Below, in pieces: positions 3,990-16,758 of a DNA stretch of 64,000 nt. The notes under the pieces are model-generated. The model made no database searches. It was not told where the DNA came from and worked only from the letters and a program-made list of their open reading frames with translations. Each line of letters opens with the position of its first letter. Position 1 is the first letter of the stretch. A program made the position numbers and the translations under genes. The stretch is from Pyrinomonadaceae bacterium (GTDB lineage: Bacteria > Acidobacteriota > Blastocatellia > Pyrinomonadales > Pyrinomonadaceae), in NCBI GenBank assembly GCA_026129865.1, contig JAHCHG010000001.1:1-64000 (forward strand). Direction: 5' to 3'.

Positions 3990-6900
3990 TTATTGCGGCA
4001 GGTAGGCTTTGGGGACGGGGATGTCGCCGTTGGTTCCCCAGTTTACGCCGGTCAGGGTTAGGGTCGAGCTTCTGAGCACGTACCAGTCGCCTGATGACGG
4101 GCGGAAGACCGCAACGTCGGTCGTGCCGTCGTTGTCGAAGTCTGCCGCTGCCGGGATGTCGCCGTTGGTTCCGAACGGGAACGCGCGGACGGTGTTATCC
4201 AGGCTCTGGAAGATCCACCAATCGCCGGTCGATGGTCGGAAGATCGTCAGATCCGTCTTGCCGTCGCCGTCGAAATCGCCCGTTACCGGAACGTCCGTCG
4301 AGTTGCCCCACGCTGCGATCAATGTCGTCGCCGTGGCGCTTCTTAAGACATACCAGGTGCCGGTCGATGGTCGATAGACCGCGATGTCCGTTTCTCCGTC
4401 TCCGTCATAATCGCCCTGAACCGGTTTGTCGGTTCCGAGCCCGAAGGTGACCATCTTGACCAGTCCGTTCGAGCTCTGTCTGATCGCCCAGAGTCCCGTC
4501 GATGGTCTGAAGACCGCCAGATCCGTCTTGCCGTCGTTGTCGAAATCGCCCTGAACAGGCTTGTCTCCGTTCATTCCGAACTGCGTTATCGTCTCGCCCG
4601 AATCCGAACTTCTCAAGACATGCCAGTTTCCTGTCGATGGTCTAAAGAATGCCCGGTCGGTCTTCCCGTCGCCGTCGTAATCGCCCGGCGCGATCAGATC
4701 GCCCGCCAATCCGAACGTCTGAATCAGCGGAACACCGTTCGTGCTCTGCAATGAATACCAGACGCCTGTCGACGGTCGGTAAACGCTGTAATCGCTGACC
4801 CGGTCTCCGTCGAAATCACTGATCGAGAATGCCTCTTCATCAATGATCACGCCGGCGCCGTTGTTTGCGATCGTCGCATTTGCAGCATTCGACAAAATGA
4901 TCCGGAACACTTCGTTCTGCTCTCTGATCGTGTCGCCGAAGACCGTGACCGAGAAGTTCTTCGTCGTTTCACCGACTGCGAACGTTACCGCGGTCAGCGG
5001 AATCGGGACATAATCGCTCGATGTTGCCGAATCGTGCTCCGTCTTGTAGCTGACCGTTACCGGCACTACATGAGCCTGCGACAGCGTTATCGTGAAATTA
5101 AAGAGCGACGTGCCCGAATTTCCTTCAAGCTGCCTGACCGTGTTGACCGAAAGCGTCGGAATGTCATCGTTGACGATCGTTCCGTCGCCTTGATTATCCG
5201 AGATCGTTGCGCCCGTCGGGCTCGACAGATCGACGACGAACGTTTCGTCAAACTCCGCTGCCAGATCGCCGATAACAGGTACCGTGATCGTCTTCGACGT
5301 TTCCGCCGCTCCGAACGTCAGTGTTCCTGCCGTCGTCGTGTAATCCGCGCCCGGCGTCGCCGGATGCATTCCGCTGCCCGGATTCGTCGTGTACGCCACG
5401 CTCGCTCCCGCCGGATTCGCCTGTGAAAGCGTTACCGTGAACACGAAATTCGTCGTTCCCGAATTGCCTTCGTTCATCGACACATCCGTGATCGTAAACG
5501 CCGGAACGTCATCGTTCTGTATCGTTCCGACTCCCTGACCGTCTGCGATCGTCGCATTTATCGGACTTGAAAGATCGACAAAGAAGGTCTCATCAAATTC
5601 GGTCGTCGTATCCCCATTGACAGAGACGTTGACCGTCTTTGTAGTCTCGCCCGCGAGGAATGTTACCGGCGTTAAAGCGATCGCCGTGTAATCTTCACCC
5701 GGAGTCGCCGGATTCGTCGTTCCAACCGCCGTCGCGTAGCTCACTGTTACATCTAAAGGACTCGGCTGCGAAAGCGTGATGGTGAACGCGAAATTGCTCG
5801 TTCCCGTGTTGCCCTCAACCTGCGAGACATCGTCAATGCTCAAAGTCGGCGTGTCGTCGTTTCGGATCGTCGCGCTGCCTTGAGGATCGAGTACGATCGC
5901 ACCGGTCGGCATTGTCAGATTAACGAAGAACGTCTCATCCAACTCGACGGTCGTATCGCCGTTGACGGTAACGGACGCCGTCTTGGTCGTTTCTCCGGGA
6001 GCGAATGTCAGCATGACCGGCGTAGTGATCGCCGTGTAGTCGCCGCCTGCCGAGGTTGCCGTGCCGTCGGCGGTCGAGTATTTGACCGTAACAGGCGAAA
6101 CGCTCGCCGGCGAGAGCGTGACCGTAAAGTTGAACGTGTTCGGTCCCGAACTTCCCTCATCCTGGGTAATGTCGTTAATTGACAAAACCGGAGCGTCGTC
6201 GTTTTCGATCGTTCCAATTCCCTGATTATCGGCAATCGTCGCGTTCACCGGATTGCTCAGGTTGACGAAGAATGTTTCGTTGAGCTCGATCTCGGTGTCG
6301 CCGTTGACGGTTACCGCAATTTGTTTCGTCGTTTCGCCCGGAGCGAAATTCAACGTCGTCAGCGGCAGACCGACATAATCCGTAAACGCAGTTGCCGTGC
6401 CGTCCGCGGTTGCGTACTGTACCGATACCGGCAAATTCGTCGTTTGCGACAGACTCACAGTGAACGTCGCCAAAGTCGTTCCCGAATTGCCTTCCGCGAC
6501 CGTTACATCGTTGATCGAGATCGCCGGAGTATCGTCATTCAATATCGTTCCCTGTCCCTGGTTGTCTGAGATCGTCGCGTTTGTCGCGCCGGTCAGATTG
6601 ACAAAGAACGTCTCGTCTAGCTCAACATTCGTGTCGCCTGTAACAAGAACGGTTACTGTTTTCTGGGTGTCAGCCGGTCCGAAATTCAGAACCGTCGGCG
6701 CGATCGCCGTGTAATCATTCCCGGCAACGGTCGCCGTTCCGTCCGCCGTTGCATATGTTACCGTTGCACCCGCGGGATTTGCCTGCGACAAATTCACTGT
6801 GAAAGTAAATGAGGTCGTTCCCGAATTGCCTTCGTTCTGCGTTACATCGTTGATCGAAAACGTCGGAATATCGTCGTTAATGATCGTTCCCATGCCTTGT

Positions 6901-9900
6901 CCATCGGCTATAGAAACGCTAGCTCCGGACAGATTGGACAGATTGACAAAGAACGTCTCGTCAAGTTCGACCGTGTTGTCGCCGTTGACCGAAACGCCAA
7001 CCGACTTCGACGTCTCGCCGGGATTGAACGTAATCGTTCCCGAAGCCGCCGTATAATCGGTTCCTGCGGTCGCCGGATTGACCGTCCCGGCGGCTGTTGC
7101 GTAATCGACCGTGATCGCCGTCGAACTCGGATTCGTCAGCGAAACCGAAAATATAAACGACGTTGTTCCTGCGTTTCCTTCCACGAGCGAGACATCGCCG
7201 ATCGACATCGCCGTCGTATCGTCGTTCTGGATCGATCCCAATCCCTGATTATCCGAGACCGGCGCACCCGAGGCATTCGACAAATTGACGAAGAATGTCT
7301 CGTTCGGCTCGACCAAGGTGTCGCCGGAAACATTGACCGTCACTATTTTTGTCGTTTCTCCCGCGCTGAACGTCAGCGTTCCCGACACAGCCGTGTAATC
7401 GCTACCCGAGTTCGCCGTTCCATTCGCCGTCGCGTAATCGACCGTGATCGCCGAAGCACTCGGGTTTGTCAGCGAAACCGTAAAGTTAAACGCCGTCGTT
7501 CCCGAATTGCCTTCGTTCAATGAAACATCATTGATCGAAAGCGCCGTCGCGTCGTCGTTCTGGATGGTTCCCAATCCCTGGTTGTCCGAGATAGTCGCGC
7601 CGGAGGCATTTGTCAGATTGACGAAGAAAGTCTCGTTCGGTTCGACCTTGTTGTCACCGTTGACAAGGATGTTCACCGTCTTCGACGTCTCTCCCGGGTT
7701 AAAGGTTAAGATCGTCGAACCGACCGCTTGATAATCTCCATCCGAGATCAAAGCCGTCCCGTCCGCTGTCGCGTAGTTTACCGTAACAGCCGTTGCGCTT
7801 GGGTTTGTCAACGAAACGGTAAAGCCGAATGTTGTTGTGCCCGAATTGCCCTCATTTAAAGAAACATCGCTGATGGACAACGCTGTCGTGTCATCGTTCA
7901 ATATCGTTCCCAATCCCTGATTGTCGCCGATCACCGCTCCCGAAGCGTTAGATAAATTAACGAAGAAAGTCTCGTTCGGTTCGACTGTTACGTCTCCCGA
8001 TACATTCACCGTTACAGTTTTCGAAGTCTCGCCCGCTGCAAAAGTTAATGTTCCCGACGCTGCTGTGTAATCGCTGCCGGAAGTCGCCGAGCCGTTTGCC
8101 GTCGAATAATCGACCGTGATCGCAGACGCGCTGGCATTCGTCAAAGAAACCGAGAATACAAACGCCGTCGTTCCGCTGTTACCTTCGTTCAGCGTGACAT
8201 CGCCGATGGCGATAGTTGCGGTGTCGTCATTCTGAATAGTTCCCAATCCCTGATTATCGGAGATCGTCGCATTAACGGCTCCCGACAAATTCACAAAGAA
8301 GTTTTCGTTCGGTTCAACGACCGTGTCTCCCAAAACGCTGACGGTAATAGTTTTTGAAGTCTCGCCGGCGTTGAACGTAACCGTTCCGGAAGCAGATGTG
8401 TAATCGCTTCCGGCAATTGCTGAGCCGTTAGCGGTCGCATAATTCACAGTAACCGCAGAAAGACTCGGTTGAGAAAGATTTACGGTAAAAGTAAAATCGG
8501 TCGTTCCCGAATTTCCTTCCGATGCGCTCACGTCGTTAATCGAAATCGACGCGATATCATCATTCTGAATGGTGCCTTGTCCCTGACCGTCGAGAACCGT
8601 TGCGCCCACGACATTTGTCAGGTTTACAAAAAAGGTTTCGTCGGATTCGACCGTTGTATCGCCGTTGACGCTAACGCTGATCGTTTTGCTGGTCTCTCCC
8701 GGATTAAAACTAATCGAGCCGCTATTCGCAGTATAATCACCCGGCGCAACGGCGGTTCCGTTTGCAGTTGAAAAATCCATGGTGATCGTTTGACTGCTCG
8801 GCTGCGAAAGCATAACTGTGAACGTAAAGTTCGACGATCCGGAGTTTCCTTCCGGCGCCGCGACGCCGTTAATTGAAACAGTCGCAAAATCGTCGTTTTG
8901 AATGGTGCCGATACCTTGATTATCCGAGATCGTGGCGTTTGTCGCCCCGCTTAAATTAACGAAGAAATTTTCGTTCGGCTCGACCGTTGTATCGCCATTA
9001 ACCACTACAGTTATCGTCTTCGTGGTATCGCCGGGAGCAAATGTTAGAGTTCCGCTCGCTGAGCCGTAATCGCCCGGTGCCACAGCGGTTCCGTTTGCCG
9101 TCGCATAATTTACGGTAACTGTTTGAGAACTTACTTGCGAAAGCGTCACTATAAAGTTGAAATTGGTGGTACCCGAATTTCCTTCCGACGCGCTCACATC
9201 ATTGATCGAAAGCATTCCGGCGATCACGTTTTGGGATAACGGCGTTGACGTACTTGTGTTAAATCCTCCGCCGCCCGGTGTAGTTGTACCCGCGTAAACC
9301 GCAGTAATCGACCGAACTCCCGCAGGAAGCGCGTTGGTAGACAGGGTCGCAGCCGCCGACGTACCGGTTGTCGGCACAAGAGCGCCTGTTCCGAGACTCG
9401 TTGCACCGTCGAAGAATTCAACGTTCCCGGTCGGAATTCCGCTCGCCGCCGTAACTGTTGCGGTAAACGTTACATTTTGTCCCAAATTAGACGGATTTGG
9501 CGTCGATGTCAGGGTCGTAGACGTTCCGATCTTGTTAAGAGTAAAATCGACGCACCAGCTGGCGACTGTTGAAACGCCGCCGCCTATTCCGTCGTCTACA
9601 GAATAGAGAGTCCAGTTTCCGTTCGGATTTGAGCTTGCATAAATTGAATTAAACGTTGAAGTGCCCTGAGGAGCCGCCCGATTAAAAGCAGCCGGCGCGG
9701 GTGCCGGATACGGATCAGTTTCCCCGACAGCGCTGAAATCGGTCGGACGATACGTTCCGCCGGAGAGCGCTGTTCCGATCGGGAACAATCCCGATGCCGC
9801 GTCATCGACGGTTAAATTAATATTGCTGACCGCATTTACGGAATCGCCGACGTCGGACATAAATTGAAATGCCTGACCGTTTGCACCGACCAGCATAAAA

Positions 9901-11111
9901 TCAAGATTCGAAGGACGCGGCGCGGTTAGTCCATTGATCTTAACCCGCGCAGCAGCGATGGTCCCAATTAATCCGGAAACGCTAATGTTAGACGGATATA
10001 CGGAGCCTGTTCCCGGATCTGCGATAGTAAATCCGCCGTTATTGCAAAATTGTCCGCCGGTTTGAACAGTCGGACTGTTGATCACCTGCGAAAGCGATCC
10101 GCTGCTGATGCCAAACGTTGCCGTGCCGCTGTAGTTGGCGGAAATCGACCGCGTACCTTCGGGAAGCGTTGTCATACAGGTCGCATTTCCCGACCCATCG
10201 ACCGCCGAGTTTGAGCAGCCGGCGATCGGCGACCCGTTATTCGTAAAGGCGACCGTTCCCGACGTAACGGGCGCTCCGCCTGCTGAAAGCGTCGTCGTCG
10301 ATGTAAAAGTAATGGTCTGAGTGGTTAAAGCAGGATTAATATTCGACGCAATCGAAGTATTCGTCCCTTGAACTACGGCGTTAGTTGTAACATCAATCGA
10401 CCATCCGCCGGACACAGACGAAGTTCCGCCGCCAAGTGAATCATCTACGATAAATAAGTTCCAGTTTCCGTTCGGTGAAATTCCGTTAAACGCAGACGCA
10501 AGTGTCGCTATACCTTCGGGCGCGGGTGTGTTGAAAGTCGCCGGTCCCGGAGACGGAAAATCGTCGCTGTCGGTCGCCGAAAAAAGATAATCCGTGGGTT
10601 TGTATGTACCGCTTGAGATCGCTGTGCTCGGAACCAATGCTGCGGCGGAATCGTCGAAAGTCAGATTTACGTTCGACATTCCGAATAGATCGCCTCCGTC
10701 GCCGAGAAGCATCAGCGCCGCTCCGTTCGGAGCGACCAGCGCGAAGTTTAAATCTCTTTCACGGTTTGTCGTAATACCGGTAATCGTAACATTGACGTCC
10801 GAAACCGTTCCGGCAAGTCCTGAAACCGTAATAGCGGACGGATACGGGGTGGCTATACCGTTAGGCGTCGAAGTACCGGCTCTGTCGGCGACAGTAATTG
10901 CAGTCGAGTTTGAAAAAGCGGTAAGGTTTGAATGACCGGTTTGACCGGCTTTTTGAATCTCGGATCTGATCGAGTCGATCTTCTGGTTAAAGAAGCTGTT
11001 CTTTTCTCCTTTATAAGCCAATGAAACCGCCGGAAGCTGGATCAGGACTATCATTAAAAAAGAAATTAAACGCAACAAATAATTAAAGGAAGAGGGGTTA
11101 TCTGTTTTCAT
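3990..11111 (-). CDS. Secreted giant protein: two P domains, Ig-like, 13 Calx-beta repeats, FG-GAP repeats
   Basis: This is a 2373-residue protein with a signal peptide at about 1-32 (hydrophobic core, SLA cleavage-like site). The order is P domain (about 70-230), bacterial Ig-like (about 245-340), second P domain (about 350-520), second Ig-like (about 525-640), thirteen Calx-beta repeats of about 110 residues each (every one beginning near a SINDV...EGNSGTT motif), then six FG-GAP/VCBS repeats of about 49 residues with DxDxDGxxD calcium loops, ending in a short PVPKAYLPQ tail. Calx-beta and FG-GAP repeats bind calcium and mediate extracellular contacts, so an adhesin or biofilm-matrix role is inferred. 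Start: ATG with AAGG about 9 bases upstream. A terminator follows the stop. The same FG-GAP tail type occurs in three other proteins of this window. Confidence 0.93.
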   Translation of the reverse strand: MKTDNPSSFNYLLRLISFLMIVLIQLPAVSLAYKGEKNSFFNQKIDSIRSEIQKAGQTGHSNLTAFSNSTAITVADRAGTSTPNGIATPYPSAITVSGLAGTVSDVNVTITGITTNRERDLNFALVAPNGAALMLLGDGGDLFGMSNVNLTFDDSAAALVPSTAISSGTYKPTDYLFSATDSDDFPSPGPATFNTPAPEGIATLASAFNGISPNGNWNLFIVDDSLGGGTSSVSGGWSIDVTTNAVVQGTNTSIASNINPALTTQTITFTSTTTLSAGGAPVTSGTVAFTNNGSPIAGCSNSAVDGSGNATCMTTLPEGTRSISANYSGTATFGISSGSLSQVINSPTVQTGGQFCNNGGFTIADPGTGSVYPSNISVSGLIGTIAAARVKINGLTAPRPSNLDFMLVGANGQAFQFMSDVGDSVNAVSNINLTVDDAASGLFPIGTALSGGTYRPTDFSAVGETDPYPAPAPAAFNRAAPQGTSTFNSIYASSNPNGNWTLYSVDDGIGGGVSTVASWCVDFTLNKIGTSTTLTSTPNPSNLGQNVTFTATVTAASGIPTGNVEFFDGATSLGTGALVPTTGTSAAATLSTNALPAGVRSITAVYAGTTTPGGGGFNTSTSTPLSQNVIAGMLSINDVSASEGNSGTTNFNFIVTLSQVSSQTVTVNYATANGTAVAPGDYGSASGTLTFAPGDTTKTITVVVNGDTTVEPNENFFVNLSGATNATISDNQGIGTIQNDDFATVSINGVAAPEGNSGSSNFTFTVMLSQPSSQTITMDFSTANGTAVAPGDYTANSGSISFNPGETSKTISVSVNGDTTVESDETFFVNLTNVVGATVLDGQGQGTIQNDDIASISINDVSASEGNSGTTDFTFTVNLSQPSLSAVTVNYATANGSAIAGSDYTSASGTVTFNAGETSKTITVSVLGDTVVEPNENFFVNLSGAVNATISDNQGLGTIQNDDTATIAIGDVTLNEGNSGTTAFVFSVSLTNASASAITVDYSTANGSATSGSDYTAASGTLTFAAGETSKTVTVNVSGDVTVEPNETFFVNLSNASGAVIGDNQGLGTILNDDTTALSISDVSLNEGNSGTTTFGFTVSLTNPSATAVTVNYATADGTALISDGDYQAVGSTILTFNPGETSKTVNILVNGDNKVEPNETFFVNLTNASGATISDNQGLGTIQNDDATALSINDVSLNEGNSGTTAFNFTVSLTNPSASAITVDYATANGTANSGSDYTAVSGTLTFSAGETTKIVTVNVSGDTLVEPNETFFVNLSNASGAPVSDNQGLGSIQNDDTTAMSIGDVSLVEGNAGTTSFIFSVSLTNPSSTAITVDYATAAGTVNPATAGTDYTAASGTITFNPGETSKSVGVSVNGDNTVELDETFFVNLSNLSGASVSIADGQGMGTIINDDIPTFSINDVTQNEGNSGTTSFTFTVNLSQANPAGATVTYATADGTATVAGNDYTAIAPTVLNFGPADTQKTVTVLVTGDTNVELDETFFVNLTGATNATISDNQGQGTILNDDTPAISINDVTVAEGNSGTTLATFTVSLSQTTNLPVSVQYATADGTATAFTDYVGLPLTTLNFAPGETTKQIAVTVNGDTEIELNETFFVNLSNPVNATIADNQGIGTIENDDAPVLSINDITQDEGSSGPNTFNFTVTLSPASVSPVTVKYSTADGTATSAGGDYTAITTPVMLTFAPGETTKTASVTVNGDTTVELDETFFVNLTMPTGAIVLDPQGSATIRNDDTPTLSIDDVSQVEGNTGTSNFAFTITLSQPSPLDVTVSYATAVGTTNPATPGEDYTAIALTPVTFLAGETTKTVNVSVNGDTTTEFDETFFVDLSSPINATIADGQGVGTIQNDDVPAFTITDVSMNEGNSGTTNFVFTVTLSQANPAGASVAYTTNPGSGMHPATPGADYTTTAGTLTFGAAETSKTITVPVIGDLAAEFDETFVVDLSSPTGATISDNQGDGTIVNDDIPTLSVNTVRQLEGNSGTSLFNFTITLSQAHVVPVTVSYKTEHDSATSSDYVPIPLTAVTFAVGETTKNFSVTVFGDTIREQNEVFRIILSNAANATIANNGAGVIIDEEAFSISDFDGDRVSDYSVYRPSTGVWYSLQSTNGVPLIQTFGLAGDLIAPGDYDGDGKTDRAFFRPSTGNWHVLRSSDSGETITQFGMNGDKPVQGDFDNDGKTDLAVFRPSTGLWAIRQSSNGLVKMVTFGLGTDKPVQGDYDGDGETDIAVYRPSTGTWYVLRSATATTLIAAWGNSTDVPVTGDFDGDGKTDLTIFRPSTGDWWIFQSLDNTVRAFPFGTNGDIPAAADFDNDGTTDVAVFRPSSGDWYVLRSSTLTLTGVNWGTNGDIPVPKAYLPQ
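4835..9215 (-). repeat. Thirteen tandem Calx-beta coding repeats (about 330-base period)
   Basis: The repeats are visible in DNA as recurring blocks such as TTCCCGAATTGCCTTC and CCCTGATTATC at a period of about 330 bases. Sequence drift differs between repeats; the central ones (about 6800-8300) look most alike, which suggests recent internal duplication. Boundaries are approximate, read from the protein repeats. Confidence 0.8.
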
Positions 11112-11230: not shown

Positions 11231-11761
11231 TTAATTTCTCGATGGAAATATGCCCTGCAGCGCGATAATAAAATTGATGCAGGTAAATGGCTGAATATTT
11301 GAATGCGGCTGGCTGCCGCCGCTATTTCCAATTGTTACTTGAACAGCGCCGTTGTTCATTTGAGTGTTAAAAGCTGAATTGTAATTGTTGCCTTCAGCTA
11401 AAAAATTTCCTGTAGGAACAGTATCGGAAGCAGGACCGCTGTTCGCATTTGCTGTAGTGGTCGCTGTGTGATTATGCGACGGGATTTGCGAAGTGATCAG
11501 CGTAACATTTTCAACTCCGCCTTGTTCTCCCAAACTTCGCGGACTTAGTCCCGGACCACTTCCGGGATGCATCGGGACACGACCGCGAAGATCCGGCAGC
11601 GCAAATGTCGTTTGACCGTTTCCGCCGTAGGTTGTTCCAAGAATTGAAAACAACGCGGTATTTTGGGCAATCGGAAGAAGCTGCCCGCTGCAGAAAGCCC
11701 AACTTCTGGGCGCGAAATTTCCTCCGAACATCACTATTTCACCTAAAAAAGGGGTCGCCAT
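11231..11761 (-). CDS. Tail-collar domain protein (microcystin-dependent protein MdpB-like)
   Basis: This 176-residue protein opens with the phage tail-collar signature: GEIVMFGGNFAPRSWAFCSGQ then LLPIAQN, GTTYGGNGQTTFALPDLRGR and GSGPGLSPRSLGEQGG. The domain covers roughly residues 5-90; the rest is a Gly/Asn/Thr-rich distal part with HNH and PHSNIQPF motifs as in MdpB homologues. The family includes short tail-fibre-like proteins found in many bacterial chromosomes without phage neighbours. Their role is not established; a secreted or surface-assembled structure is a guess. ATG at 11761 has a strong ribosome site (CAGGAGA). Genes for DUF6916-like proteins lie nearby, a pairing I recall from other genomes. 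No other phage genes are present, so this is not a prophage. Confidence 0.88.
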   Translation of the reverse strand: MATPFLGEIVMFGGNFAPRSWAFCSGQLLPIAQNTALFSILGTTYGGNGQTTFALPDLRGRVPMHPGSGPGLSPRSLGEQGGVENVTLITSQIPSHNHTATTTANANSGPASDTVPTGNFLAEGNNYNSAFNTQMNNGAVQVTIGNSGGSQPHSNIQPFTCINFIIALQGIFPSRN

Positions 11762-11911: not shown

Positions 11912-12469
11912 ATGCCTTTGTTTCTTACGGGCGCTGCCTGTCCGCATGCGAAACGATTAGAAAATGAAAAAATGTATACCGGTCTATTTGAACGAATTCG
12001 AATATTTCTTTGCAGCATCGGAATCGATGTAGTTGCCGTTGAAATTTGTGCAAACACCTTTTTGCCGGGGATCGCAGTAAAAGATGGAAAGCTATTGGTC
12101 GATGTGGAAAAACTTCTCTTTCCAGGCGACTTACTTCACGAAGCGGGGCATCTTGCCGTTGTACCGAAGAATTTGCGAGAACGGTTGAACGACGAAATAG
12201 AAGTTCCGGAATTTAATGCTGAACTGCTTGAAATAGAAGCCATCGCGTGGTCATATGCGGCTTGCCTGCATCTGGCTATAGACCCTGAAATAGTGTTTCA
12301 CGAAGGCGGCTATAGAGGAAAATCGAAAGCTTTGCTGCAAAATTTTGAATTGGGAATCTATTTGGGAATCGACGGCTTGGAAAATTCGGGATTGACGCTG
12401 ACTCCGCGAACCGCGGAACGACTTGGGGAAAAACCGTACCCGGACATGATCAAATGGTGCAGGGATTGA
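11912..12469 (+). CDS. Hypothetical protein with HEAGH zincin-like motif
   Basis: This 185-residue soluble protein has HEAGH at residues 76-80 (the HExxH zinc-peptidase signature), followed about 30 residues later by a Glu-rich helix (ELLEIEAIAWSYA) that could carry a third ligand. No signal peptide is seen. The motif suggests a metalloprotease fold, but no family could be named and activity is unproven. The start is uncertain: ATG 11912 lacks a good ribosome site, and an in-frame ATG at 11972 (MYTGLFERIR) is an alternative. It stands divergently from the tail-collar gene and upstream of the Tat-exported DUF6916-like gene on the same strand. Confidence 0.65.
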   Translation: MPLFLTGAACPHAKRLENEKMYTGLFERIRIFLCSIGIDVVAVEICANTFLPGIAVKDGKLLVDVEKLLFPGDLLHEAGHLAVVPKNLRERLNDEIEVPEFNAELLEIEAIAWSYAACLHLAIDPEIVFHEGGYRGKSKALLQNFELGIYLGIDGLENSGLTLTPRTAERLGEKPYPDMIKWCRD

Positions 12470-12579: not shown

Positions 12580-13026
12580 ATGCAAAATCGTCGCGACTTT
12601 CTAAAATACGGCTCTATTGCAGCAGCCGGCGGATTGCTTTTAACGGGCAGGGTCAATATTTTCGGGCAATCTATCGACAAAAGCGGGTATTTTCCGTTAC
12701 CGCCCAAAATTCTTTCAGACAAATCGACTTTTCTCAATAAACAATCATTTGAACCGCTGATCGATCAGCTTTTTACCGTCTCCGTCGATGATTCTTCAAA
12801 AATTTCGATGCGTTTGGTTGAAATTGTGTCTGCGGGCGACGACCTGGCAAGCAGAGTTTCGATCGATGCATTTTCTTTGATCTTTGAAGTTCGTGAAGGT
12901 CAGCTGCTGGACGATCGAATTTACGACATTTCGCACAACGACATAGGAACCGTTCCTATCTTCGTTTCGACAGTCGGCAGAAGCCAAAGGCGTTTTCAGG
13001 CAGTTTTTAGCCGTGTTTATAACTAG
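12580..13026 (+). CDS. Tat-exported DUF6916-like protein
   Basis: This 148-residue protein starts with a twin-arginine signal (NRRDFLK at residues 3-9, then a hydrophobic SIAAAGGLLLTG stretch), so it should cross the membrane folded. The C-terminal half (about 55-148) resembles DUF6916: a small beta-rich domain with FSLIFE, QLLDDRIYDI, IGTVPIFVSTV and FQAVFSRV. The function is unknown. A second, shorter member of the same family lies tail-to-tail on the other strand, with the two stop codons overlapping (13023-13026). The ATG at 12580 has AGGA about 9 bases upstream. Family assignment is from memory of the motif pattern. Confidence 0.75.
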   Translation: MQNRRDFLKYGSIAAAGGLLLTGRVNIFGQSIDKSGYFPLPPKILSDKSTFLNKQSFEPLIDQLFTVSVDDSSKISMRLVEIVSAGDDLASRVSIDAFSLIFEVREGQLLDDRIYDISHNDIGTVPIFVSTVGRSQRRFQAVFSRVYN

Positions 13027-13346
13027 TTTTTTGGCAAGAGCCGATTAAAAACTGCTTCAAAGACAATTCCGTCAGACGCATCTTCAACCGGTACAACGAA
13101 TAATTCGCGCGACCCAAGTTCGGGATGATCAAAAATATAGTTGTTTTGAACGGGCGGAAAATCGTGCGGAAATAGGAAAAACATCGAGAATCTTTCCTGG
13201 TTCGAAGTTTTTTTAGCTTCCGAAACTTCAACCAGTTTTGCATCCACGTTTTGGTTAACCCGAAACATCGAGTTTACCTGAGCTGCAAAGTCATCGCGAT
13301 CTGTTATTTTTATAAATTCTTTAAGTTTATCGTCGCTTACCTTCAT
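13023..13346 (-). CDS. Small cytoplasmic DUF6916-like protein
   Basis: This 107-residue protein has no signal peptide. Its pattern (F-R-V near 28, KLVEVSEA, FSMFFLFPHDFPP, NNYIFDHPELG, LFVVPVE and FEAVFNRL) lines up with the C-terminal domain of the neighbouring Tat-exported protein and with DUF6916. Its start codon overlaps that of the APS-kinase fusion: CATG at 13344-13347 is read as ATG on both strands, so the two genes diverge from a shared start with no intergenic space. Promoters must then lie inside the opposite gene. Function unknown. Confidence 0.72.
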   Translation of the reverse strand: MKVSDDKLKEFIKITDRDDFAAQVNSMFRVNQNVDAKLVEVSEAKKTSNQERFSMFFLFPHDFPPVQNNYIFDHPELGSRELFVVPVEDASDGIVFEAVFNRLLPKN

Positions 13347-14277
13347 GGTTTTGATTCAACTTACCGGCTTGTCCGGCGCGGGAAAAACTACACTATCATA
13401 CATTGCTAAACACGAACTTGAAAAACGCGGCTTCAAGGTCGAAGTTATTGATGGCGATGAATATCGAACAAACCTCTGCAGAGATCTGGATTTTTCCAAA
13501 CAAGACCGCAAGGAAAACATTCGCCGACTCGGTTTCGTTGGAAAAGTTCTCGCTCGGAATGGGGTAATCGTACTGCTTGCAGCAATTAATCCGTACGAAG
13601 ACGTTCGCGGCGAAATAAAGGCTAGTTTTCCGCGGGTCAAAACTGTTTGGATCGATTGCGATATTAAAACGTTAAGAACACGCGATACAAAAGGACTTTA
13701 CGAACGAGCATTTCTGCCGGACGATCATCCCGAAAAATTGAATAATTTAACAGGCGTTAACGACCCTTACGAAATTCCGGAGCATCCCGATCTGATCATC
13801 AAAACCGATTCCGAAAGCGTCGACCGTTCCAGCAACGTACTTTTAAAATTTATCCTCGAAAATGTCGAAGAGGAAAAAGACAGAACGCGTAAAGCTCTCT
13901 TCATCGGTCGATGGCAGCCGTTTCACAATGGGCATAAGTGGCTGATAGACCAGAAATTAAAGGAAAACAGACCGGTTTTGATCGCAGTTCGGGATGTTGC
14001 GCCCGACGAAAGTAATCCGTTGACGACCGAACAAACCGTCGAAATACTTCAAAAATTTTATGCGGACGAGAATGTCGAAATTATTAAAATTTCAAACATT
14101 GAAAGCGTAAATTTTGGGCGCAATGTAGGTTATGAAATAAACGAATTCGCGCCGCCATCCGAAATTGGGAGCATTTCGGCAACTGAGATCAGAAAGAATT
14201 TGAAAGAAAAAGACGATTCGTGGAGAGAAAAAGTGGATCCAAAGATCCACGAACTAATTGCTAAATATCTCGGTTAA
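13345..14277 (+). CDS. APS kinase fused to a small HxGH nucleotidyltransferase
   Basis: 310 residues. The N-terminal domain (about 1-175) is an adenylylsulfate kinase, which phosphorylates APS to PAPS: P-loop GLSGAGKTT at 8-16, DGDEYR, DRKENIRRLG, and KGLYERA then GVNDPYEIPEHP all match the family. The C-terminal domain (about 183-310) is a cytidylyltransferase-like Rossmann domain with GRWQPFHNGH (HNGH is the HxGH motif) and ISATEIR, most like NadM-type adenylyltransferases. Animal PAPS synthases fuse APS kinase to full ATP sulfurylase, which is also an HxGH enzyme; here the partner is far smaller. It may supply PAPS to the sulfotransferase next door, but the substrate of the C-terminal domain is unknown. 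The 3' end overlaps the convergent GNAT gene by 17 bases. Confidence 0.88.
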   Translation: MVLIQLTGLSGAGKTTLSYIAKHELEKRGFKVEVIDGDEYRTNLCRDLDFSKQDRKENIRRLGFVGKVLARNGVIVLLAAINPYEDVRGEIKASFPRVKTVWIDCDIKTLRTRDTKGLYERAFLPDDHPEKLNNLTGVNDPYEIPEHPDLIIKTDSESVDRSSNVLLKFILENVEEEKDRTRKALFIGRWQPFHNGHKWLIDQKLKENRPVLIAVRDVAPDESNPLTTEQTVEILQKFYADENVEIIKISNIESVNFGRNVGYEINEFAPPSEIGSISATEIRKNLKEKDDSWREKVDPKIHELIAKYLG

Positions 14278-14764
14278 CCTTTTCATCATCACGCCATTCC
14301 ATTTGAAAATGGGTAGTTACGTCGGCTGCCTTCTTAAACCCCAACCTCTCATAAAGGCGAAAAGCCGGATTCATTTTTTCGACATAAAATCTGATCGGCA
14401 GTTTGGTCCTGCGGCTTTGTTCGAAAAGCCATTCCAAAATTTTTGTGCCGATACCTTGATTTCGAAAATCGCTCAGAATTGATAGATCTATCAGATGAAG
14501 ATCGCCTTGTTCGGTTGAATGGATCATTCGACCGGCAGATTTATTTTGATAAAGAATTACGAAGTTCGAAGCCTGCGGGTAATTTTTTTCATAGTCGATG
14601 CTCTGAGCCTGAAATTGAAAATCCAAAATGTTCTCTAATTCATTTTCCGCCAGGTTAAGAGCTTCAAAATGTCTGCGAACCGAATCATAAAAAACTTCGC
14701 GCCAAAAGCTCTCGTCATCTTTGCGGCGCGGACGCAGTTTGATCTCAGGGGAAATTTTTTTCAT
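14261..14764 (-). CDS. GNAT family N-acetyltransferase
   Basis: This 167-residue protein has the acetyl-CoA-binding motif A, DFRNQGIGTKILEWL (residues about 99-113), and the family's C-terminal NPAFRLYERLGFKK motif. It would transfer an acetyl group from acetyl-CoA to an amine; the substrate is unknown. The start codon overlaps the stop of the sulfotransferase by 4 bases (ATGA-type coupling), so it is the last gene of a Nif11-like / sulfotransferase / GNAT operon. The 3' end runs 17 bases into the convergent APS-kinase gene. Confidence 0.88.
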   Translation of the reverse strand: MKKISPEIKLRPRRKDDESFWREVFYDSVRRHFEALNLAENELENILDFQFQAQSIDYEKNYPQASNFVILYQNKSAGRMIHSTEQGDLHLIDLSILSDFRNQGIGTKILEWLFEQSRRTKLPIRFYVEKMNPAFRLYERLGFKKAADVTTHFQMEWRDDEKVNRDI

Positions 14765-15732
14765 TGAACTAGCAGCCTATAATTTTCCAGTTTTTCGTAC
14801 AACGGCAGGACAAGATCTTCCGCCAAACTCAAAACCTTTTCACTGGCTTCCTTCCTTTTTTCTTTGCCGTCCGGGACAAATGTTTCGCCCGGCGATTTTG
14901 CGTTTGATCTTGCCGTTCGTCCGATCGCCGCCGCCTCGTCTTCGTCAAAATGAACATTAAAATGAGCGCATATTTCGCTTGAGAAAATTTCCGGAAGCTG
15001 GTCGTAATTGATAAATTTCCCGAGATTGCTTTCTTTGTTTGCCAGACCAGATTCGGCAAACGCTGCAATAGTGCGGGCAAATCTCTCTTCGGTAGAAAAC
15101 TGCAGGATCTCGAACAAATTCAGTTCGGGAAAGATCTTCTCGATGGTTCCGGGAATCATTTGAGCGCCGGGTTGACGCAAATTGGAAACGATCACCTCGA
15201 CCGGATCCCGGTACAAAAAGATCCATGGAATTTTAGGATATGCGCTTTCGATCAGGTGTAGATCGAGAACGCTCCAACTGTCAAATTTTACAAAGAAATT
15301 CTCTTCCCGTTCAAATCTTTTCTGCGCTAAAGCATTGACGACCCATCTCAGCCAGACCTTCTTTCGTTCGTCGGAAACGGCGGCGCGAATGACTTTATCG
15401 ATCACAGTTGCTTCGGAAATTACAATATTTTTCTCAAGCGATGCGAACATCTGCGAAACTAATGTCGAACCGCACCGCGAAATGTGAAAAATGAAACCTT
15501 TCGGCTGAAGTCCGGGAGATTCGTTGAATATTTCGCCAAGAAATTCGATCGGTGTTTGATGTCGAAATGCGAGGTTGAACGGTTTTCGCATCAGGATATG
15601 CAAAGTATCTTCGAAAAATGGTTCTGTGAATCTTTTTTTCCCGAGAAAAACCCAATCTACGAAGAAACTTCCGCTTTGTTCGTAGATCCTAAGCGGTGCC
15701 CAGTCGCGAAAATCCTCAATTCTTAAATCCAT
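14761..15732 (-). CDS. PAPS-dependent sulfotransferase family protein
   Basis: 323 residues. The 5'-phosphosulfate loop is ISRCGSTLVSQMF (about 84-96) and the 3'-phosphate motif is YRDPVEVIVSNLRQPG (about 174-189), both in standard order for PAPS-dependent sulfotransferases. The enzyme should move sulfate from PAPS to a hydroxyl or amine. An N-terminal extension of about 75 residues (FVDWVFLGKKRFTEPFFEDT) precedes the core and may recognise a protein partner. It overlaps the Nif11-like gene by 10 bases upstream and GNAT by 4 bases downstream. An APS kinase 0.5 kb away could make its cofactor. Substrate unknown; the context suggests a peptide or protein. Confidence 0.88.
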   Translation of the reverse strand: MDLRIEDFRDWAPLRIYEQSGSFFVDWVFLGKKRFTEPFFEDTLHILMRKPFNLAFRHQTPIEFLGEIFNESPGLQPKGFIFHISRCGSTLVSQMFASLEKNIVISEATVIDKVIRAAVSDERKKVWLRWVVNALAQKRFEREENFFVKFDSWSVLDLHLIESAYPKIPWIFLYRDPVEVIVSNLRQPGAQMIPGTIEKIFPELNLFEILQFSTEERFARTIAAFAESGLANKESNLGKFINYDQLPEIFSSEICAHFNVHFDEDEAAAIGRTARSNAKSPGETFVPDGKEKRKEASEKVLSLAEDLVLPLYEKLENYRLLVQ

Positions 15733-15926
15733 CTTTCTATGAAAACACGCCGACCATCATTCATTGCCTGCAATACTTCAGATTCACCAAATTTCAACCC
15801 AAATTCGTTCCCGAGCTCGATCACGCGCGATACAAAAACGTCATGTTCCGAGATCGACTGTAGCGTATTTTGGAGCTCAAGATCACGAAAAACAATTTGA
15901 CGAAATTTTTCAAATTCTTCATCCAT
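15723..15926 (-). CDS. Nif11-like small protein (possible RiPP leader or partner protein)
   Basis: This 67-residue protein is mostly helical and matches the Nif11 domain pattern: FEKFRQIVFRDLELQNTL, then VSRVIELGNEFGLKFGESEV, ending in RRVFIERWI. Nif11 domains are known as leader regions of ribosomally made peptides and also as stand-alone proteins. Here nothing follows the domain: no Gly-Gly cleavage site, and no Cys- or Ser-rich core. It is therefore more likely a small partner or docking protein, or the target itself. Its last 10 bases overlap the start of the sulfotransferase gene, so the two are translationally coupled. The ribosome site is weak. Confidence 0.75.
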   Translation of the reverse strand: MDEEFEKFRQIVFRDLELQNTLQSISEHDVFVSRVIELGNEFGLKFGESEVLQAMNDGRRVFIERWI

Positions 15927-16126
15927 TTCTTTGCGAGAATAGAGGATTTTGCGGTACGTTTCAATCTAGCAGGATCTTTCTATTTTCTTACTCAAGTTTA
16001 AATAAATGAACAGCTTCCGATTTCGCATTGCTTTATTCGATCAGTCACAGTATTTCGGGACAAATGCCGGGATTGACCTAATTGAAATTTTAAGAAAATT
16101 TTCGCTCTGAGCTCTTTCGGGCATTA

Positions 16127-16142
16127 TCTTTTTCGAAAAAGA
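16127..16142. promoter_or_regulatory. 16-base perfect palindrome in a divergent promoter region
   Basis: TCTTTTTCGAAAAAGA lies between the divergent Nif11-like (minus) and beta-hydroxylase (plus) genes, directly before a CATAATAT box at 16143-16150 that could serve as a -10 element. It is a candidate operator; A-tract palindromes also arise by chance. Confidence 0.35.
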
Positions 16143-16197
16143 CATAATATGCTGTCTGCTCAAACTGCTTTCAGCCGACTTTTTTAGTGCCGAAAAT

Positions 16198-16758
16198 ATG
16201 ATCCCTGTTTTAAAATTACCTTTGAGTTTCGACAATGAACTCCTTAGAAAAGATCTTCTTCAGTTTACCGCTGAAGAATGGACGCCGCATTTCAACACCG
16301 CGTATTATGAGGGCGATTGGAGCGGGATCGCGCTGCGAGCAGCCAAGGATGCGGTCATCTCGATCTATCCGGATCCCGTAGCGGAAAACGGTTATGAAGA
16401 GACTGCATCTTTACGGAGATGTGCTTACATACCTTCCGTTTTGCGCGCTTTTCAATGCGAACTCGAATCCGTAAGGTTCTTAAAGCTTGCTGCAGGTTCG
16501 CAGATCCTCGAACATCAAGATTACTGTCTCGGGTTCGAAAACGGCGTCGTCCGCGTTCATATTCCGGTCGAAACTAACGACGAAGTTGATTTTTTTCACA
16601 ACGGAAAGAGACTTGAAATGCAGCCGGGCGAAGCGTGGTATTTGAATTTCAACTTAATGCACAGCGTCAATAATAGAAGCGAAAAAGACCGCGTTCATCT
16701 TGTTATCGACTGTATTCTAAACGATTGGATGAGGTCGTTTTTTCCCGCCGAGGATTAG
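16198..16758 (+). CDS. Aspartyl/asparaginyl beta-hydroxylase family dioxygenase
   Basis: This 186-residue protein covers one Asp/Asn beta-hydroxylase domain. Candidate Fe(II) ligands are in HQD (106-108) and the later His155 (NLMHSVNNR); Arg165 in DRVHLVIDC fits the 2-oxoglutarate-binding Arg. RVHIPVETND and GEAWYLNF are further family motifs. The enzyme would hydroxylate an Asp, Asn or similar side chain in a peptide, or a small molecule, using O2 and 2-oxoglutarate. The ATG at 16198 is 271 bases from the divergent Nif11-like gene. This neighbourhood with a sulfotransferase and Nif11-like protein suggests a modification set; that is inference. Confidence 0.85.
   Translation: MIPVLKLPLSFDNELLRKDLLQFTAEEWTPHFNTAYYEGDWSGIALRAAKDAVISIYPDPVAENGYEETASLRRCAYIPSVLRAFQCELESVRFLKLAAGSQILEHQDYCLGFENGVVRVHIPVETNDEVDFFHNGKRLEMQPGEAWYLNFNLMHSVNNRSEKDRVHLVIDCILNDWMRSFFPAED

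Follow-up and report, generated by a model that had tools for sequence, protein, structure and literature searches.

The stretch of DNA analysed here, which we call the window, comprises 64,000 nucleotides of a contig (JAHCHG010000001.1) from a soil bacterium, a member of the Pyrinomonadaceae in the phylum Acidobacteriota. It encodes a Nif11-like small protein, a sulfotransferase (ST) with motifs for binding 3'-phosphoadenosine-5'-phosphosulfate (PAPS), and an enzyme of the Asp/Asn beta-hydroxylase family (HYD), together with a short tail-collar protein whose C-terminal asparagine is the proposed site of modification. The analysis is comparative genomics throughout, and the features on which it turns are the following.

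16198-16758, plus strand: HYD, 186 residues, an Fe(II)/2-oxoglutarate enzyme (PF05118, E 1.5e-17).
15723-15926, minus strand: Nif11-like domain protein, 67 residues, stand-alone in the window.
14761-15732, minus strand: ST, 323 residues, PAPS-binding motifs kept (PF13469, E 5e-5, below the cut-off).
11231-11761, minus strand: tail-collar fibre protein, 176 residues, the proposed substrate (PF07484, 6e-30).
11234-11236, minus strand: codon of the collar C-terminal Asn (GIFPSRN-COOH), the proposed hydroxylation site.

The Nif11-like gene shares 10 nt with the ST gene, which in turn shares 4 nt with a gene for a GNAT acetyltransferase, and HYD diverges from this row of three. All the genes described in an earlier note on this DNA were found where it had placed them, with the overlaps it gave.

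The ST is rare in the window's phylum: of 247 genomes sampled, 4 have it, and one of these matches is weak. Bacterial genomes were scanned with an alignment of four STs (a diverse ST alignment proved too variable for the pattern scan, and a narrower one was used), which gave 52 loci, whose open frames were all searched with profiles of the window genes. A Nif11-like domain is encoded directly upstream of 43 ST genes, on the same strand and nearly always across a gap of 13-64 nt. Among the 27 Nif11-ST pairs flanked on both sides by 5 kb of sequence or more, HYD lies within 2 kb in 22 and a collar gene within 10 kb in 23; many of the other pairs have collar genes at a distance in the same genome. 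The pairs are spread over six phyla: Acidobacteriota, Verrucomicrobiota, Chloroflexota, Myxococcota, Pseudomonadota and Vulcanimicrobiota. The earlier note had proposed a sulfation and hydroxylation set with a Nif11-like docking domain, to be given up if the neighbourhood were not conserved in relatives; with 43 pairs in six phyla the set came through strongly. The same conservation refutes the view that these genes are accidental neighbours or the remnant of a prophage or tailocin, a reading to which we give almost no weight. The collar is a phage domain, with phage homologues of up to ~38% identity; however, ST is absent from 50,697 phage records, the genes annotated around plasmid collar loci are not those of phages, and the prophage or tailocin pattern of a collar among phage structural genes with its partner genes in phages was not seen. 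The association is moreover kept in all six phyla, and genome-level co-occurrence gives a p of 1.5e-6 in Verrucomicrobiota and of 0.001 in Acidobacteriota.

On its own, the small protein of the window scores 15.4 bits against PF07862, under the cut-off of 23.8, and a PF07862 search of the source genome returned nothing above threshold, the window gene included, because the single sequence is too divergent. Its family is a different matter. PF07862 is matched by 36 of the 43 members (best 8e-10) and TIGR03798, the Nif11 leader model, by 34 of 43 (best 2e-8); the family profile also finds 9zn4, a Nif11 protein of solved structure, at 4.7e-7 and a left-out Nif11 precursor at 1.6e-5. The profile search that the note had named as a check thus failed for the single window sequence and succeeded for the family. 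The window protein has neither a GG cleavage site nor a core peptide and ends in ...RRVFIERWI; its relatives end in a similar way or run on into HYD or ST. The domain sits at the C-terminus of HYD in six loci, at the N-terminus of ST in nine, and in the middle of single HYD-Nif11-ST proteins of 546-590 residues in three, so that in 18 open reading frames it lies inside the enzymes. These fusions to HYD, ST or both lead us to regard the Nif11-like protein, on the comparison of sequences, as part of the enzymes, a docking or activating domain, and not as a core-bearing peptide. Of the two roles that had been suggested for it, docking partner is upheld and target is not. That it is instead the precursor of a ribosomally synthesized and post-translationally modified peptide (RiPP), or itself the protein sulfated or hydroxylated, is strongly disfavoured: its homology to Nif11 leaders and the presence of an ST of the same family beside a true Nif11 precursor in Cylindrospermum would speak for this, but it lacks a GG site and a core and is built into enzymes, three times into triple fusions. 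A precursor with leader and core encoded with its enzymes, as in a classic RiPP system, was found neither in the window cluster nor in its relatives, the Cylindrospermum locus (L053) excepted, in agreement with the earlier judgement that this is not a classic RiPP.

Both enzymes keep their catalytic motifs. HYD belongs to PF05118 by its profile match and by its HxD...H metal triad (H106, D108, H155), which is unchanged across 22 relatives. The window ST keeps the 5'-phosphosulfate-binding loop, FIFHxSRCGSTLVS, and the motif RDPVEVLVS; across the family FIFHxSRCGSTLxS and RxPxEVxxS are conserved, as the 5'-phosphosulfate loop and 3'-phosphate motif of a PAPS-dependent sulfotransferase. A structure model of a HYD-Nif11-ST triple fusion is confident (predicted local distance difference test, pLDDT, 93.9; predicted template modelling score, pTM, 0.85); one plasmid-record row was left out of the alignment for structure prediction, as were misaligned Nif11 single-domain sequences from that of the triple fusion. 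In this model the HYD domain resembles proline hydroxylases and AspH with Z scores of 16-18, and the ST domain resembles tyrosylprotein sulfotransferases, STF9 and polyketide sulfotransferases with Z scores of 14-16. One HYD (G075) carries a frameshift at a C run, which was kept as found and is probably a sequencing artefact. A Diaphorobacter plasmid (L015:8980-10872) encodes an independent HYD-sulfotransferase fusion without Nif11, with a TIGR03032 gene and the gene of a giant IPTL-CTERM protein as neighbours; this fusion is a second hint at a coupling of hydroxylation and sulfation.

Collar loci typically encode collar proteins, often three in a row, with GNAT, a DUF6916 protein and frequently a giant secreted repeat protein, and most of them are without the HYD-Nif11-ST module. 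We therefore compared collar residues between loci with HYD (HYD+) and without it (HYD-). In a scan without a preselected site, covering 470 column-residue pairs in 123 collars from 53 clusters, the top correlate of HYD was the C-terminal Asn, with a stratified difference of 0.69 against 0.43 for the next pair and a p of 5e-5 on permutation within phyla. Asn-ending collars make up 53 of 56 in HYD+ clusters versus 33 of 126 in HYD- clusters. On a collar tree from which the last four residues were left out, at least 29 changes of HYD status are needed. Of the nearest HYD+/HYD- collar pairs, 26 follow the association, none goes against it and three are ties; when plasmid records are removed, the split is 24:0. 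The HYD status of plasmid-derived loci is known from that record only, and both the cluster counts and the nearest-pair figures mix discovery and test data.

For new genomes and for the unlinked cases the prediction was made once the site was already known, so these data are out of sample. In new Verrucomicrobiota genomes all collars end in Asn in 4 of 4 HYD+ versus 0 of 9 HYD- genomes, and in new Alphaproteobacteria in 2 of 2 versus 4 of 14 (pooled, 6/6 versus 4/23, p 4e-4). In 10 further HYD+ genomes, about 20 of the 22 complete unlinked collars end in Asn, and the rule holds with HYD and collar on different contigs. Two loci with Asn-ending collars and no local HYD (L057, L060) belong to genomes that encode HYD elsewhere; HYD was not found in the genomes of L025, L027 and L030, whose collars are mostly not Asn-ending, nor in those of 19 sampled collar-bearing Acidobacteriota without local HYD. 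The collars of HYD+ loci without ST (L014, L105) all end in Asn, and those of ST+ loci without HYD (L025, L027, L030, L006, G640, G723) mostly do not. Of the latter, G640 is a natural case of HYD loss, with HYD cut to its last 25 codons (L177:8943-9017) beside an intact Nif11-ST pair and a collar that ends in Ser. By these sequence patterns, the C-terminal residue of the collar follows HYD, not ST. The suggestion that the tail-collar protein is a likely target gains support from this and from the closeness of collar genes to most well-flanked pairs.

The proposal that we draw from the conserved linkage, the fusions, the Nif11 homology, the catalytic motifs and an association of HYD with C-terminal Asn that persists between unlinked genes is as follows. 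HYD, the Nif11-like domain and ST would form one complex dedicated to short 'tail collar' proteins of the trimeric-fibre type. HYD, as an Fe(II)/2-oxoglutarate oxygenase, would hydroxylate the C-terminal Asn (...FPSRN-COOH), with the beta carbon as the probable position. The Nif11-like domain would descend from a RiPP leader and bear a core no longer; joined to the enzymes in cis or present as their small subunit, it would keep ST active and docked to HYD. ST, with PAPS, would then most likely sulfate the new hydroxyl, leaving a charged cap at the C-terminus of the fibre. What we infer is that modification falls on the Asn itself, that the beta position is used, that the steps come in this order and that the sulfate goes on the same residue. 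Hydroxylation of the C-terminal Asn by HYD is the part that we consider likely. Since a single polypeptide or operon so often unites HYD, Nif11 and ST, ST probably acts on the hydroxyl made by HYD, yet sulfation of that very Asn is put forward more hesitantly, as something that may or may not hold. A collar-dedicated complex that hydroxylates the Asn and then most likely sulfates it is, as a whole, slightly favoured by the comparative data; the fullest version, in which a RiPP leader domain has been built into a machine that beta-hydroxylates and then O-sulfates the C-terminal Asn of full-length fibre proteins in at least six bacterial phyla, is offered as tentative. Our guess, from the neighbouring secreted repeat proteins, is that the capped fibre might serve as an extracellular adhesin or fibre.

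Several observations weigh against this proposal. The best-scoring solved relatives of HYD are free-proline and nucleoside-antibiotic hydroxylases, and PF05118 also holds enzymes that act on free amino acids and lipids. Collars are all Asn-ending in the four HYD- alphaproteobacterial genomes counted above, many HYD- triplets contain one Asn-ending paralogue, and two HYD+ loci (L040, L058) have some Ser-ending collars. No sulfation site independent of HYD is marked in the collar sequence, and the collar structure model (pLDDT 50) is a poor guide to exposure of the C-terminus. JmjC_2-type hydroxylases were considered as the source of Asn-ending collars without HYD and set aside, as no homologue was found in the four such loci where one was looked for. 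The use of Ser or Thr as a ready-made hydroxyl by collars of ST+ HYD- loci was not convincing either (6/12 versus ~40% elsewhere).

Two other readings accept the association and explain it differently. In the first, which we consider unlikely, the C-terminal Asn is a docking tag for HYD, and hydroxylation and sulfation take place at other residues of the collar (Asn48 of the YGGNG loop, for example) or on a partner bound to it. Enzymes that read a C-terminal motif and modify upstream residues do exist, PosC with its ARMD motif being an example (PMC12636437), and Asn over Asp at collar position 48 also rises with HYD (0.64 versus 0.26). Position 48, however, varies within HYD+ clusters; the enzyme family acts on Asp/Asn, and the position that tracks HYD far better than any other is itself taken by an Asn. 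In the second, somewhat less likely still, HYD and ST act on another substrate, such as the giant Calx-beta/FG-GAP protein, a surface glycan or a lipid, and Asn-ending collars are merely a co-travelling sub-type. The lipid and free amino acid hydroxylases of PF05118 (a weak LpxO match; proline hydroxylase) fit this, as do the giant repeat proteins that often flank collar genes; a co-travelling sub-type is, however, hard to square with the many changes of HYD status on the collar tree, after which the nearest pairs still stand at 26:0, or with the rule holding across contigs.

The remaining genes of the window locus are as follows.

14261-14764, minus strand: GNAT acetyltransferase of the collar locus.
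13345-14277, plus strand: adenosine-5'-phosphosulfate (APS) kinase fused to a NadM-like nucleotidyltransferase, a possible local source of PAPS (PF01583, E 9e-42).
13023-13346, minus strand: DUF6916 protein, collar-locus companion (2e-18).
12580-13026, plus strand: DUF6916 protein with a TAT-like N-terminus, collar-locus companion (2e-16).
11912-12469, plus strand: HEXXH-motif protein without a Pfam match, recurrent near the module.
3990-11111, minus strand: secreted-type repeat protein, 2373 residues (13 Calx-beta, Ig-like, FG-GAP), adjoining the collar gene.

The note had counted three of these in with the modification set or its targets, and none kept its place. GNAT, brought in for a possible acetylation, belongs to the wider collar locus whether or not HYD and ST are there. 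The APS kinase fusion, which converges on GNAT and overlaps its end by 17 nt, has a NadM/HIGH-nucleotidyltransferase-like C-terminal half with a HIGH-type motif (FIGRWQPFHNGH); it is not a core member, because it adjoins the module in two clusters only (the window and L046) and the source genome encodes elsewhere a second APS kinase, fused to ATP sulfurylase. Nothing points to DUF6916 as a target, the collar C-terminal Asn being the residue singled out. Tabulated C-terminal residues of DUF6916 and GNAT showed no clear link to HYD. No mention of DUF6916 was found in the literature searched. The HEXXH-motif protein is found close to the module in no fewer than seven further loci (L026, L029, L041, L043, L046, L142, L172), and giant repeat proteins comparable to that of the window flank many collar loci. 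Collar residues 96-98 form an HxH motif, strictly conserved in nearly all collars, which we take to resemble the iron-binding HxH motifs of phage fibre tips. One locus (L174, G823:C52) has nine tandem collar genes, in three triplets, beside GNAT and a DUF6916 gene. A frequent feature of collar loci (L006, L019, L036, L048, L150, L151) is a PqqD-type recognition domain accompanied by HprK-like or lasso B2-like genes, and in Azospirillum a PqqD gene directly precedes an ST homologue, in the slot held by Nif11 elsewhere.

If the proposal is right, it would offer a first way into the biochemistry of the 'tail fiber' collars, a widespread family, and predict a hydroxylated, perhaps sulfated, C-terminal Asn with a sharp mass signature of +16 or +96 Da on one residue. 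No description of such a modified C-terminal Asn was found in the papers searched, and a literature search on phage tail collar or tail fiber proteins with sulfotransferase or beta-hydroxylase returned only unrelated genome work. The module would also be a natural counterpart of engineered leader-enzyme fusions, and would suggest an exchange of RiPP-type enzymes between peptide-antibiotic pathways and the ordinary maturation of proteins.

Among known systems, the collar triplets annotated as microcystin-dependent protein or 'tail fiber protein', with GNAT and DUF6916, are the type of locus that bears the module, although most are without HYD, Nif11 and ST. AspH, also of PF05118, shares with HYD the fold and the Fe(II)/2-oxoglutarate site (Z about 16) and acts on protein Asp/Asn, hydroxylating within EGF-like domains; HYD differs in being prokaryotic, only about 12-16% identical, fused or coupled to ST and, as proposed, directed at a C-terminal Asn. 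Tyrosylprotein sulfotransferases share the PAPS-dependent fold and belong with the ST domain's nearest relatives of solved structure (Z about 15), and MbnS is thought to sulfate a threonine of the RiPP methanobactin (PMC3621798); from both, the window ST, whose substrate is a proposed one, differs in family and partners. The Nif11/NHLP leaders of RiPPs (PF07862, TIGR03798; proteusin or prochlorosin type) have a homologous helical domain that guides enzymes, whereas in the module this domain is without GG site and core, is either built into HYD or ST or free as a subunit, and would serve a separate full-length protein. The ST family is shared as well. In Cylindrospermum sp. FACHB-282 (L053:6773-13614), a Nif11 precursor with a GG-type leader and the core RPPNCTSKGCYDRG is encoded with YcaO, a ThcOx oxidase, a JmjC_2 protein and an ST of the window family that is nested within the Nif11-ST clade, a candidate sulfated azole RiPP cluster; the partnership of leader and enzyme is thus common to RiPP and module, with the leader of the module on the side of the enzyme. 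Engineered fusions in which a leader attached to a RiPP enzyme lets it act on leaderless substrates (PMC13003496) have the leader in the same position, and by analogy the Nif11 domain may activate its enzymes for leaderless substrates; the module differs in being natural, in its Nif11 domain and in its pair of hydroxylase and sulfotransferase.

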